A stretch of 22,383 nt of DNA from a virus. Position 1 is the stretch's first letter. Each line of letters opens with the position of its first letter. This document shows positions 4,564-9,504 of the stretch, in pieces. The DNA lies in the IMG/VR virus record IMGVR_UViG_3300048776_000012, positions 1 through 22,383 of that record; one strand, written 5' to 3'. The notes under the pieces were generated by a model that was given only the letters and a program-made list of their open reading frames with translations, searched no databases and had not been told where the DNA came from. The position numbers and the translations under genes were made by a program.

Positions 4564-5267
4564 GGCAAAATCGTATTGGCGTTGCTACTGTAGTTCCCTG
4601 CACCCGGAATGTTTGTTGTATCTGAATTCCCGTATTGAGCCGCTATGGACGCATCTGGATTGGTTGGTTGAACGGTTCCTTGCTGAGTGTCACCTGTAGT
4701 TTGCGAACGCGCTGAATTTGTTTGAACAGATACAGTTGAAATAATTAGTTGTTCAAACGTCAATATCAATTCAGCGCCGTAGTAATAGCGTTCATTATCT
4801 GTGCATCTAATGTTAGTTAGAAGACAGTTCTGATAAGTTTGAAGACGAGTGTTCAAAGTAATTAGCGATCTGTTTTTCATCAATGTAATCATTTGCTGAA
4901 AAGCAGAAACACTCTTGGAAGGATTGCCGCTCCACATTCCGCTTGAATAAGCAGCAATAGTATCGGACATAACCGCTTCAAGAACAACGATTGCCGGTTG
5001 CAAAACCGCATTATCAGAAGAATTGTAACCAGTCTGCAAAGGTTTCTTTGTAGGTATGCACGATTGATTATGATCCGCACTCCTTATAGCATCAAACACA
5101 AACATTGTTGTTGTCGTCGATCCAGCAACAGGGGCAGATGTTCCAGAGTTGTTAACTACAATTGAATACAAAGCCGGTTGCGTTCCCCAATTTGGCGGCG
5201 AATACTGCCTCGATCCTGTTGTTGACGGATTAGCAGTTGGCGAAATTGAAGTAGCGGCGCTAGGCAT
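4560..5267 (-). CDS. Dit-like tail/baseplate protein
   Basis: A 235-residue protein. The region around PTKKPLQTGYNSSDNAVLQP (about residues 72-91) followed by AIVVLEAVMSD is characteristic of the Dit-like N-terminal domain of phage tail proteins, which forms the ring at the distal end of the tail tube. The following AFQQMITLMKNRSLITLNTRL, TYQNCLLTNI and LILTFEQLIIST segments complete the domain. The first 60 residues are Ser/Thr/Pro-rich and the last 50 are Gln/Thr/Asn-rich, probably flexible. The start lies inside the last codons of the tape measure gene, with AGGACAGTTT directly before ATG. Confidence 0.78.
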   Translation of the reverse strand: MPSAATSISPTANPSTTGSRQYSPPNWGTQPALYSIVVNNSGTSAPVAGSTTTTMFVFDAIRSADHNQSCIPTKKPLQTGYNSSDNAVLQPAIVVLEAVMSDTIAAYSSGMWSGNPSKSVSAFQQMITLMKNRSLITLNTRLQTYQNCLLTNIRCTDNERYYYGAELILTFEQLIISTVSVQTNSARSQTTGDTQQGTVQPTNPDASIAAQYGNSDTTNIPGAGNYSSNANTILP

Positions 5268-6732
5268 AAACTGTCCTAGTTTGTATTAAACCGTGTTTAG
5301 TTTGAAGTGAGATATGCTGTTTTATTTTTTTAACAACAATGTTTCCAACTTGTTCGTTGGTAAGTCCCGGTTGAGTGATATGAATATCCCCAACCGAAAT
5401 TGAAGAAGATGAATTTCCACCGTTAGCATAAGCACCTTGAAAATTTTTCATTCCATGCTCATAATTATCTAAACTATCAGCAAAATATCCACCTTTTTTT
5501 AATACCTTTGCATAATCATCAATGGTACTCGATCCAATCGCGCTTGTATACTTACGTTGAATCAGATTTGTATAATAACTTGCAAAATCATTCAGCGATC
5601 CAAACGAACGATAACTTCCATCTGCATTTTCAATTCCAGCAAGATTGTTCAACGATTTTGCACCGCGATTGGTGAAATTGCCAGTCTCATGCGCCCATTG
5701 CGCGAAAATGATGCTAGGGTCAACTCCAAGAGCCATTCCAACCTTACCAGCCAGCAATCGCACCTGATCCGCTGTAGTACCCGTTTTGGCCCCGCCAGTG
5801 GCGCTAGGAGCGTTAGAAGCCCCGCCGGTGGCGCTAGGAGCGGCAGTTTGCTTGCGATCCCACCACGGCCCCTGAGCTATTAACGCTTTAACATGGTCCC
5901 ATATACTACTTTTGCCAGTAATCGCATCAGAAATTGATCCAAAAACTTTACCGTATATATCAACAATTTTTAACAACGTATCAAGTAACACTTTTACACC
6001 CTTTAGCATCACAAGAATCAAAGGTTCCAATTTAATAAATATAACAGCTAAGTCTTTGAAAATGCCAAGTGTAATTTTTAATACAGGCACAAGATAGGTT
6101 GAAAATTCCCTTGACCACATTGGAATGTTTTTTATTATAAAATCATTGAGTCCATGTAGACTCTTTGTAAAGTCTCCACCGCCTAATGCTTGAAAAACAT
6201 TCTTAGCAACGCTATATGTAAAGTATTTAAATTCAACTTCCATTCGAGTAAATTCAAACATAACATCGCGGATTTGTTTCATCGACCCTTCGTAATCACC
6301 GCTCAATCCTGCCGAAAGTAAAAGTTGATCTTTCCGTAATTGATTGTAACGCGCATGAAGTTCTGGATCAAAAGCAATGTTTTCAATTGGTTGTCCTAAC
6401 GCGTCAAGTGTAATCTTCAACGATCTGGCTTGCTCAGTATTCAACATCATGCGTTCGCCAAATAGACGGAATTCTTGATCACTAGAAGCAACTTTTGAAA
6501 GCATTCCCAAACTAGCCCCTGTTATACCTACAAAAGCAGCCGCAACCGCTAGAGATGCTTCGGCAATGACACCAGAGCTTCCTTTGAAATCAGCAGCCAT
6601 TTCAAACGTTGTTTTCTTAACAAGCGTCTTTGCATCTTTCAACGCAGAGTTGAATCTATTTAATTGACTTTGATTAACGTCAAAGCCAAGCGAGACTAAG
6701 TAGGATTTGAGGGATTTTATATCGCCAGCCAT
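5260..6732 (-). CDS. Tail tape measure protein with C-terminal glucosaminidase domain
   Basis: A 490-residue protein directly after the tail chaperone, the place of the tape measure gene. The N-terminal part has a Lys-rich helix with LKDAKTLVKKTTFEMAADFK (31-50), a hydrophobic segment at about 56-79, and another hydrophobic stretch at 213-250, as expected for a protein threaded through the tube. Residues about 322-432 look like a GH73/FlgJ-type glucosaminidase: GVDPSIIFAQWAHETGNFTN with likely catalytic Glu349, then LNNLAGIENADGSYRSFGSL and a GGYFADSLDNYEHG end. This domain would cut peptidoglycan during DNA entry. A linker at 298-317 repeats APSATGGA twice. At 490 residues it implies a short tail, roughly 70 nm. 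The start follows the TAG of the chaperone extension with no gap. Confidence 0.88.
   Translation of the reverse strand: MAGDIKSLKSYLVSLGFDVNQSQLNRFNSALKDAKTLVKKTTFEMAADFKGSSGVIAEASLAVAAAFVGITGASLGMLSKVASSDQEFRLFGERMMLNTEQARSLKITLDALGQPIENIAFDPELHARYNQLRKDQLLLSAGLSGDYEGSMKQIRDVMFEFTRMEVEFKYFTYSVAKNVFQALGGGDFTKSLHGLNDFIIKNIPMWSREFSTYLVPVLKITLGIFKDLAVIFIKLEPLILVMLKGVKVLLDTLLKIVDIYGKVFGSISDAITGKSSIWDHVKALIAQGPWWDRKQTAAPSATGGASNAPSATGGAKTGTTADQVRLLAGKVGMALGVDPSIIFAQWAHETGNFTNRGAKSLNNLAGIENADGSYRSFGSLNDFASYYTNLIQRKYTSAIGSSTIDDYAKVLKKGGYFADSLDNYEHGMKNFQGAYANGGNSSSSISVGDIHITQPGLTNEQVGNIVVKKIKQHISLQTKHGLIQTRTVYA
5789..5842. repeat. 30-bp-period tandem repeat in the tape measure gene
   Basis: Two 24-base copies, 5789-5812 and 5819-5842, start at a 30-base spacing and differ at one base. 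They are GC-rich compared with the surrounding gene. They encode two copies of a ten-residue unit beginning APSATGGA, forming the linker between the threaded part and the glucosaminidase domain. Two copies only, in frame, so this is a recent linker duplication and not a regulatory array. Confidence 0.85.
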
Positions 6733-7400
6733 CTAACGATCCCCCGTCCACTTTGCATATTTGTAACGATTCAATTCTTGAATGTCGAGGATTTCGTGAG
6801 CGTTGACAAGATCAGCAAACGAATATGTACCGTCTATTGCTTCATGCTGTTTCCAAAGTCCTAAAGCAACAGGCCGATACAAATAGTTGTCAATGGTCGG
6901 AAACGGTGTTGGCTCAAAACCCCCTAATTCGTCGCCGCTTTGAATCCGCCGCTTAAAAAAAAAGGTAACAGATTGAAATGAAGCGATTGTTGAGTTAACG
7001 CAACTGTTGTCTGAATATCAGTTTTCAAACTTGGAATTGCGATCTTTCCGTTTGCCATCAAAACAGGAAGAATTGTTTCAGTTTCTCCAACCGCTGTGAA
7101 CTGTCCGCAAACACTCAAAGCATCTCTTTGAATCTTACCAAACATAACACGATCAACGTTCATCAACATGCTTTGAATCATAGCAGAAACAGCATCTTCG
7201 GTTTGCTTAACTTGATCTTCCGGCGATAACTCCGGTTTTGGCCGTTCTTGCTTGTTAGGTTCGTCGTTTTCATCGTCTTCTTTCATCACTTTTCGCAAAG
7301 ATGCCAAAAGTTGAAAAAGAAGGAATGAGCCGGTTTCTGAATCAACCCGCGAAATTTGAAAACGCGAACTACCGATAACAGTTTCTTTTGTCGCTTCCAT
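6733..7400 (-). CDS. Tail assembly chaperone, frameshifted long form (gpGT-like)
   Basis: The upstream frame (7400 to 6924) can shift by -1 at a TTTTTTA heptamer and continue in a frame that stops at 6733. The length fits exactly: 668 bases plus one re-read base give 223 codons, so 222 residues. After the shift the protein reads KRRIQSGDELGGFEPTPFPT, then IDNYLYRPVALGLWKQHEAI and DGTYSFADLVNAHEILDIQE, and ends RYKYAKWTGDR. Without a shift this 190-base stretch would hold no gene, yet it codes for a plausible protein up to a TAG that touches the tape measure ATG. Tail chaperones of lambda (G/GT), Mu and many others use the same device. The T domain would bind the tube protein while the G domain coats the tape measure. 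Confidence 0.85.
6924..7400 (-). CDS. Tail assembly chaperone, short form (gpG-like)
   Basis: A 158-residue protein in the unshifted frame, ending GGFKAATN at a TAG at 6924. I chose the ATG at 7400 (MEATKETVIGSSRFQISRVD) because GAGGA lies five bases upstream; an earlier ATG at 7448 lies inside the tube gene and has no such site. The protein has a Lys/Glu/Asp-rich central linker (about residues 38-62) and a helical region with AVSAMIQSMLMNVDRVMFGK. It sits between tube and tape measure, the conserved place of the tail chaperone, which keeps the tape measure soluble and is absent from the finished particle. Function is inferred from position, the frameshift and length. Confidence 0.85.
   Translation of the reverse strand: MEATKETVIGSSRFQISRVDSETGSFLLFQLLASLRKVMKEDDENDEPNKQERPKPELSPEDQVKQTEDAVSAMIQSMLMNVDRVMFGKIQRDALSVCGQFTAVGETETILPVLMANGKIAIPSLKTDIQTTVALTQQSLHFNLLPFFLSGGFKAATN
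6954..6960 (-). other. Programmed -1 ribosomal frameshift site TTTTTTA
   Basis: On the minus strand a run of nine T is followed by A. In the upstream frame the codons are CCT TTT TTT TTA AGC, so the heptamer T TTT TTA fits the X XXY YYZ rule for tandem -1 slippage. After slippage the codons become TTT TTT AAG and the frame stays open to 6733. The unshifted frame stops ten codons later at 6924. I see no strong downstream hairpin by eye. Confidence 0.88.
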
Positions 7401-7411
7401 CGAATCCTCAG

Positions 7412-7897
7412 TTATTGATTGACCAGATTCGCCGCGAGAAGAATCCAAGTCACATTGCCGGGGTTCTTGTCATAAGACTTATCTGGAACTTTGGTTGGAG
7501 TAAGGCCGGTTACAATGTGACTTGAACCGTCAACGGTGTTTCGCATCATTAGCGCAGAAGCAGCCCAATTGCTTACGTCGCCGCTGCTACCGGCATTGAC
7601 GTGTAAATTGTGCCAATACAAAAGGTACTTGTGAAAAATACTTGTTTGCTGAACTTCAATTGTAATCCTTCCCGATTGTCCAGCAACAAACCCCGGAACA
7701 ACTGTACCATCGGCAGCGGTATCCATAACGCCGTGATCTGTTGTATTTTCAACAACGATCTTACCCGCTCCGATTTGACCGGCAAAAGCAAACGCGCCCG
7801 CAAGCGGGGAAGTCATAGCCCCACTCAAATCTTTGAATGAATACGTTGTTCCCTGCCCGGAAAACAACGCAGCAAACGCATTCGCTGATGCACTCAT
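7412..7897 (-). CDS. Tail tube protein (DUF3277 family)
   Basis: A 161-residue protein matching the DUF3277 tail tube family. Visible landmarks are TTYSFKDLSGAMTSPLAGAF (about residues 17-36), a GQIGAGKIVVENTTDHG segment, AADGTVVPGFVAGQSGRITI, the EVQQTS.FHKYLLYW stretch, and a C-terminal TPTKVPDKSYDKNPGNVTW with the Lys-Val-Pro-Asp signature. The protein stacks as hexameric rings inside the sheath and forms the DNA channel. It directly follows the sheath gene, as in related myoviruses. AGAGGAAAACT precedes the ATG. Confidence 0.9.
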   Translation of the reverse strand: MSASANAFAALFSGQGTTYSFKDLSGAMTSPLAGAFAFAGQIGAGKIVVENTTDHGVMDTAADGTVVPGFVAGQSGRITIEVQQTSIFHKYLLYWHNLHVNAGSSGDVSNWAASALMMRNTVDGSSHIVTGLTPTKVPDKSYDKNPGNVTWILLAANLVNQ

Positions 7898-7908: not shown

Positions 7909-9504
7909 TTACTGTTGAACTAGAACTTCGATGATAACCTGTTGAACTGCGTTTGTTTGAATAACGGCGCTGTATACTGGTGCGCTTGCGCGTTTAGCAG
8001 GAACAGCACCAAGTTGAGCGTAGGAAGGCGAAACGTTCAAGAACCCGTTTGGTATCGAAGTTCCGGCCTGAAGTGCTATCGTTGAACCAAATTGAATTGT
8101 GTTTCCTTCCCAAACTCCGGGTGAAAGAAATCCACGATTGACTGAAGGTTGGCAACCGTTTACATTCATCGCATGAAGGATGATTGATTGTCCTTGATCA
8201 TTCTGTCCAACGGCATTGTAGGCAGCTAGACAATTTGCCCCGGCATACTGAATATCGGCAACCAACATATCGAGTCCCAAAATGTTATCGAAGTATTGGC
8301 CGCTTCCAGTAATGCCAGTTGCGTAAGAATCGAACGATCCCCCAAAATTGCCGTACACGTTACCGTTATTGCCGGCAATTGTGTTGTAAACAAGTTGGCT
8401 GATTGGTTCGGGAGTCATACCGATCAAATTCTTATTTGTCAAAGTGAAGTAAGAATTGTTAAACCCGGTGTTCAAACCCATCGCAAGGCCCATCAAAGCA
8501 CAAGCTATGTAAGCATTGTTTGGAGCCGCGTTAAAATTCAAAGAAACGCTTGAGGAAGTTGCTGTTGCGTTATTCGATAAAACGCCAGCGGTTCCAACAA
8601 GTGAAAGCAAAGTTGTTCCAAGTGGAATTCCAGTCCCTAAAATACCTTGACCGGCAACAACTCCGGTTGCAGAAGTCAAAGTTATATTGGGCGATCCACT
8701 GGTTGTAGCGCAATTTGTAGTTGCTGCTGTTTGAACAGTTGAATAAACTCCCTGATAACGATTGTAATTACCCGCTTTCAAAGTAGAAAAAATGTTTCCA
8801 GATGCGCCCGTTGTGACATTGCTCGAAGCTGTTTTGAAAAAGTTCTGACAAACCGGAGTTGCGGTTTGCGCCCATTCTGTCATAGCGATATTATCGCCAT
8901 CAGAAGAACCAATAACATGAAACAGATACCAACTTGGAGAAACAACACGGCAAGCCTCGATTGCTTCCAAAGCAGTTTCGCCCAAAGAACTTACGTCAAT
9001 TTCAAGTCCTGTTCCAGAACCATTCGTTGTAGTCGCAATATCGGTTGTAACAGTTGCCCCTGTTCCTTGCTGAACAAAAGCCAAAGCACTCGGTATTCCG
9101 CCCGGAGCCGCTGTAACTTTCAAAATAGCATTGGAAATTCCGGTTGGATAAATCAAATCCCCAACCGCATAACCTGTTCCAGCAACAGCAATTGTAAATC
9201 CGCCGATTGCTGTTGTATCTTGCCGCCCGATTGCAAGATAGAAAGGATTTGATGAAGCAGCCAAAAAGCTCTGAGCCGCTAAATACTCTTCCGAGGTGCT
9301 GGAAAAACCATAACTCAACATCTGTTGAAGTATGGTTGAGCCGCCAGAGAACAACACAACACGCCCGCCAACTCCGTAACTTGGAATAGTCGAACTGTTG
9401 CCAACAATCAACGCTTGATTAAAAGCAGGGGGAGCAACCGCGTTTGGTTGAATCTGAACAGTTACATCAACGATATTAAGCAACGGAAGAGTCGAACTTG
9501 ACAT
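7909..9504 (-). CDS. Tail sheath protein (DUF3383 family) with two inserted beta modules
   Basis: A 531-residue sheath protein. The N-terminal part (IVDVTVQIQP at 11-20; YGFSSTSEEYLAAQSFLAAS at 65-84) and the C-terminal part (from about 330, with a Gly-rich Y.NFGGSFDSYATG region and a final VYSAVIQTNAVQQVIIEVLV) fit DUF3383 sheaths. Two segments look like insertions. One at about 98-174 contains GTGYAVGD and a Gly/Thr-rich end. One at about 258-325 contains TLTSATGVVAGQGILGTGIP and GTT, a beta module also seen in two neck proteins here. In a sheath such inserts would be expected on the outer surface. AGGGGGAATAA precedes the ATG. The protein contracts to drive the tube through the envelope. 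Confidence 0.87.
   Translation of the reverse strand: MSSSTLPLLNIVDVTVQIQPNAVAPPAFNQALIVGNSSTIPSYGVGGRVVLFSGGSTILQQMLSYGFSSTSEEYLAAQSFLAASSNPFYLAIGRQDTTAIGGFTIAVAGTGYAVGDLIYPTGISNAILKVTAAPGGIPSALAFVQQGTGATVTTDIATTTNGSGTGLEIDVSSLGETALEAIEACRVVSPSWYLFHVIGSSDGDNIAMTEWAQTATPVCQNFFKTASSNVTTGASGNIFSTLKAGNYNRYQGVYSTVQTAATTNCATTSGSPNITLTSATGVVAGQGILGTGIPLGTTLLSLVGTAGVLSNNATATSSSVSLNFNAAPNNAYIACALMGLAMGLNTGFNNSYFTLTNKNLIGMTPEPISQLVYNTIAGNNGNVYGNFGGSFDSYATGITGSGQYFDNILGLDMLVADIQYAGANCLAAYNAVGQNDQGQSIILHAMNVNGCQPSVNRGFLSPGVWEGNTIQFGSTIALQAGTSIPNGFLNVSPSYAQLGAVPAKRASAPVYSAVIQTNAVQQVIIEVLVQQ

Follow-up and report, generated by a model that had tools for sequence, protein, structure and literature searches.

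A putative -1 frameshift on a conserved T run linking a tail assembly chaperone to the DUF6889 domain in an uncultured phage

In the IMG/VR virus record IMGVR_UViG_3300048776_000012, a stretch of 22,383 nucleotides (positions 1 to 22,383; here termed the window), a tail assembly chaperone gene stops short of the tape measure gene, which raises the question of whether and how the segment between them is translated. The original prediction proposed that the chaperone is made in two forms by a -1 frameshift at TTTTTTA. Comparison with relatives supports this proposal at the sequence level, as the T run is kept in phase and the -1 frame is conserved: the locus is very probably a chaperone gene of the G/GT type, the long form of which would be produced by -1 slippage on the T run. 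The features concerned are as follows.

6924 to 7400, minus strand: short form of the tail assembly chaperone, TAC-N (analogue of lambda gpG), 158 amino acids, 0 frame (open reading frame; phrog_1688)
6954 to 6963, minus strand: proposed shift site, a run of nine T (6963-6955) followed by A, with two overlapping in-phase heptamers (sequence; relatives)
6733 to 6954, minus strand: -1-frame extension (T domain, DUF6889), 73 codons plus TAG (phrog_4364, PF21829; substitution pattern)

Two reading frames around the T run

The chaperone open reading frame (ORF) extends on the minus strand from an ATG at 7400, which is preceded by GAGG, to a TAG at 6924. Near its end it reads CCT TTT TTT TTA AGC. 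T TTT TTA occupies 6960-6954, in the phase that had been claimed for it, and is followed in the 0 frame by nine sense codons and the stop. The designation of this heptamer as the shift site holds as to phase and has to be refined in one respect: T TTT TTT, located at 6963-6957, overlaps it and is also in phase. The -1 frame is open as far as the tape measure gene, as predicted; it begins with AAG at 6954, contains 73 sense codons and ends with TAG at 6735-6733, and position 6732 is the A of the tape measure ATG. A slip on either heptamer would give KRRIQSGDELGG...KWTGDR as the -1-frame reading, ending at 6733, and the frameshifted product would have 222 amino acids. An open -1 frame is by itself weak evidence: dinucleotide shuffling of the stretch also left this frame open for 73 codons in 241 of 5000 cases (about 5%). 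The extension is accepted as real because it is conserved in relatives, the open frame alone being unremarkable.

Both parts of the product belong to known families. TAC-N matches phrog_1688 (tail assembly chaperone; E=3e-4), a profile that is also matched by 54 of 56 aligned short forms of relatives, and 55 of the 56 match Pfam Phage_TAC_15 (PF21822) at E<=0.01. The extension matches phrog_4364 (E=2e-12) and exceeds the curated cut-off of Pfam PF21829 (DUF6889), with 24.4 bits vs 23.9; DUF6889 is matched by 53 of the 56 aligned extensions. The AlphaFold model of TAC-N, built on 56 sequences, is confident, with a predicted local distance difference test (pLDDT) score of 94, and is similar to predicted tail chaperones of phages (best E 2e-5), among them, with a weak E-value, that of phage Moogle. 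In this model the shift site coincides with the end of a long helix (residues 129-149), and the modelled extension consists of a flexible start followed by a small, compact helical domain. A sequence search for solved structures gave none for TAC-N or the extension, and tblastn of TAC-N against phage records gave no match, the protein being too diverged.

Conservation of the site and of the -1 frame

Relatives were gathered through their homology with the extension, and for representative phage records the annotation was consulted as well. The two wide scans among these searches used mid-domain peptide patterns of the T domain only (WKQHE, DGTY); these patterns lie inside the T domain, and the shift site therefore played no part in the selection of loci. 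Clustering of 116 loci at 85% nucleotide identity yielded 85 independent clusters. In 80 of these, both frames are open and TTTTTT falls on a codon boundary of the -1 frame, as TTTTTTC (63), TTTTTTT (11), TTTTTTA (3) or TTTTTTG (3). No T run of at least six was found in any other phase of the region in the 85 clusters, and TTTTTT encodes only 21% of the 160 Phe-Phe pairs elsewhere in the same loci. The run has six T in 68 of the 80 clusters, seven in 8, eight in 3, and nine in the window only.

The five clusters that do not have T6 carry slip-prone strings at the same place when read by eye: Faunus (L019) has G TTT TTC, and L030, L031 and L106 have a T TTT A string. L078 is the sole A-rich relative, with the candidate slip string G AAA AAG (within GCG AAA AAG AAA, around 2536-2548) where the others are T-rich. 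L031 is Edwardsiella phage vB_EpM_ZHS, in which (1400-1700) the extension is annotated as a gene of its own starting ATGATG; GGGGATTTTATG is nonetheless in phase at the expected place, and this lineage possibly has a different decoding solution. Three contigs of Clostridiales metagenome-assembled genomes (MAGs; L039, L045, L046) have extension homologues beside unrelated or rearranged upstream genes and are possibly prophage remnants or chimeric contigs.

Beyond the 0-frame stop, the stretch evolves as a protein in the -1 frame only. Identity of the -1-frame protein to the nearest relatives is 79-81%. In comparisons with three near relatives (76-79% nucleotide identity), the proportion of synonymous differences (pS) in the -1 frame is 0.56-0.70 and that of nonsynonymous differences (pN) is 0.13-0.14, which gives a pN/pS of about 0.2; the other two frames of the same stretch have no such contrast (pN/pS about 1 or more). 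Substitutions concentrate at third positions of the -1 frame (12/8/27 by codon position vs L011). Conservation thus provides a firm case for frameshifting in this uncultured myovirus.

The same comparisons bear on whether the DUF6889 segment is instead a small independent gene, translated from its own start, as suggested by the many records that list it as a hypothetical protein of its own or leave it unannotated. In the window, the -1 frame past its upstream stop has no ATG or GTG, and neither of its two TTG codons (6882, 6774) has a ribosome-binding site ahead of it, so that the independent start envisaged as a counter-argument to frameshifting was not found there. In 34 of the 80 clusters there is no ATG, GTG or TTG before the conserved core, in 64 there is no ATG, and a start with a Shine-Dalgarno-like sequence is present in only 4. 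A separate gene would also not need TTTTTT to be kept at the nucleotide level in one phase, and this explanation is very unlikely. Least probable of all is that one ordinary ORF was split by an assembly error of one base in the T run: long homopolymers are error-prone and one extra T would join the frames, but the two-frame layout recurs in relatives with six, seven or eight T or other heptamers (IMG/VR contigs, MAGs and isolate genomes), and a sister contig that agrees at 6999 of 7000 bases has the nine T too.

Decoding at the T run

In the proposed mechanism, most ribosomes would make TAC-N, and a minority would slip back one base on CCT TTT TTT TTA and continue in the -1 frame. The P- and A-site tRNAs would leave TTT TTT (or TTT TTA) and pair again with TTT TTT one base upstream, and the resulting long protein would carry the DUF6889 domain C-terminally. 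If the roles parallel those of lambda gpG/gpGT, many copies of TAC-N would coat the tape measure protein, the rare extended form would recruit tail tube subunits and start tube polymerisation, and both chaperone forms would then leave.

Which heptamer is used would affect the junction. The nearest relatives have CCT TTT TTT TCA (T8C), and T TTT TTT is the only heptamer that they and the window have in common; in the window T TTT TTA is present as well, and the more distant L058 and L060 have T6 as T TTT TTC. As the two heptamers overlap and the first is kept in the closest relatives, the junction peptide may be FFFKRR or FFLKRR. FFFKRR, the only peptide originally predicted, is thus one of two to be expected: it would result from a slip on the first heptamer, from P-site-only slippage or from an extra U in the mRNA, whereas tandem slippage at T TTT TTA would insert Leu, giving FFLKRR. 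Mixed products of this sort have been described for U UUU UUA (review by Atkins and colleagues, PMC5009743).

Several points weigh against ribosomal slippage at a G/GT-type chaperone gene. The case is built on sequence, and the slippage itself is deduced. The absence of an obvious stimulatory hairpin, noted in the original prediction, was borne out, in that no downstream RNA structure in the window exceeds shuffled sequences (minimum free energy z-scores +0.5 to +1.4; +0.87). A Shine-Dalgarno-like element upstream of the site is not enriched in the family (12 of 80 clusters vs 12.6 expected). The window TAC-N alone scores 16.2 bits on PF21822, for which the curated cut-off is 22. A fold search of the Protein Data Bank gave no significant match, the solved HK97 chaperone (2ob9) appearing at E 7.2 only.

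Over the 80 clusters, the 55 nucleotides downstream of the site have a mean folding z of -0.86 vs -0.36 in a control segment, and 27 clusters vs 14 in the control have a z below -1.5; a downstream stimulator may be present in some relatives, though the window, at z +0.87, is not one of them. In some clostridial relatives the T run was seen by eye to form the loop of a palindrome, but such palindromes were not enriched over the control. As there is no clear stimulator, frameshift efficiency and the ratio of short to long form are not predictable.

The lack of a stimulatory RNA element is also compatible with transcriptional slippage, in which RNA polymerase would add a U on the nine-T run and some mRNAs would be read into the extension without a ribosomal slip. 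Nine T are long enough for polymerase slippage, and an inserted U yields exactly the same frame, with the peptide FFFKRR. Six T, however, is short for this process, yet the in-phase heptamer is constant across relatives; moreover, polymerase slippage would not need a conserved phase of the run, and phase is what the family keeps. Transcriptional slippage could contribute on T9, but it fails for the family as a whole because 68 of the 80 clusters have only six T, and as the explanation of the locus it is improbable.

Tail gene neighbourhood, known systems and annotation

The genes flanking the chaperone and its extension are listed below.

5260 to 6732, minus strand: tape measure protein, 490 amino acids, with its ATG at 6732 directly 3' of the extension stop (phrog_12506, phrog_22539)
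7412 to 7897, minus strand: tail tube protein (KPP10_Orf10 family), the upstream neighbour (PF11681, E=9.8e-29)
7909 to 9504, minus strand: tail sheath protein, DUF3383 family (phrog_205 tail sheath, E=1.3e-51; PF11863)

The chaperone gene sits between the tail tube and tape measure genes, as in G/GT-type chaperones, and the order sheath, tube, chaperone, extension, tape measure was found again in almost every annotated relative inspected. Dit-like and baseplate proteins are also among the neighbours; with sheath, tube and tape measure proteins they identify the virus as a contractile-tailed phage. The tape measure protein matches phrog_12506 (tail length tape measure) at E=4.6e-5, as well as phrog_22539, and this short protein contains a glucosaminidase (peptidoglycan hydrolase) domain (PF01832, E=7e-13) at residues 331-419.

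Frameshifted tail chaperones are a long-known mechanism, from lambda onward, and precedents exist for this tail type. The lambda heptamer is G GGA AAG; the window phage differs from lambda in its heptamer and its contractile tail, and no sequence relation between the two was found, no dedicated test having been made. The logic is shared with gpG/gpGT, in which a -1 slip takes place near the chaperone end, directly 5' of the tape measure gene (PMC5009743). Klebsiella phage Mulock (MN098327, CPT_Mulock_014/015) has a homologous T domain and the gene order of the window, and at the homologous place its depositors give a joined coding sequence named 'tape measure chaperone frameshift product'. Its shift string is GGGAAATTTTTTG, with several overlapping heptamers, vs T9A in the window, and its T domain is only 29% identical to that of the window. 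In Chaseviridae (phiEcoM-GJ1, flopper, Y2, PM1, Myduc, pAh6-C), a segment resembling DUF6889 stands beside TAC-N in the -1 frame and T TTT TTC is in phase, Faunus having G TTT TTC instead; the linker ahead of the T-domain core is longer than in the window, and among the annotated rows inspected there is no frameshift product, the extension being a hypothetical protein or unannotated. For Vandenendeviridae and Andersonviridae (phages Adele and Moogle), frameshifted tail chaperones were argued in 2025 on the basis of a GTTTTT motif (PMC12846349), which differs from the T TTT TTN described here.

The present comparison adds a connection of DUF6889 with Phage_TAC_15, by way of an in-phase T TTT TTN that is almost invariant; a full-text literature search found no paper naming DUF6889. 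It is likely that DUF6889 as a whole does not constitute a separate protein: in phages of Gram-negative as well as clostridial hosts it would form the C-terminus of Phage_TAC_15 chaperones as a trans-frame domain, reached by -1 slippage at this heptamer with no conserved RNA stimulator. A domain of unknown function would thereby be assigned a likely role, as the part of a two-form tail chaperone that recruits the tube. As the DUF6889 segment is absent or separately named in many public phage records, correction of its annotation reaches well beyond the window contig. In Faunus, LA93P2, AB434P3, Y2 and EKP1 (L019, L020, L023, L024, L032) no annotation covers the extension, which leaves a gap between the chaperone and tape measure genes, and in Klebsiella phage ST340-VIM1phi10.1 (L022, 1546-1698) the DUF6889 segment is labelled 'NTP pyrophosphohydrolase', apparently a misannotated frameshift extension.
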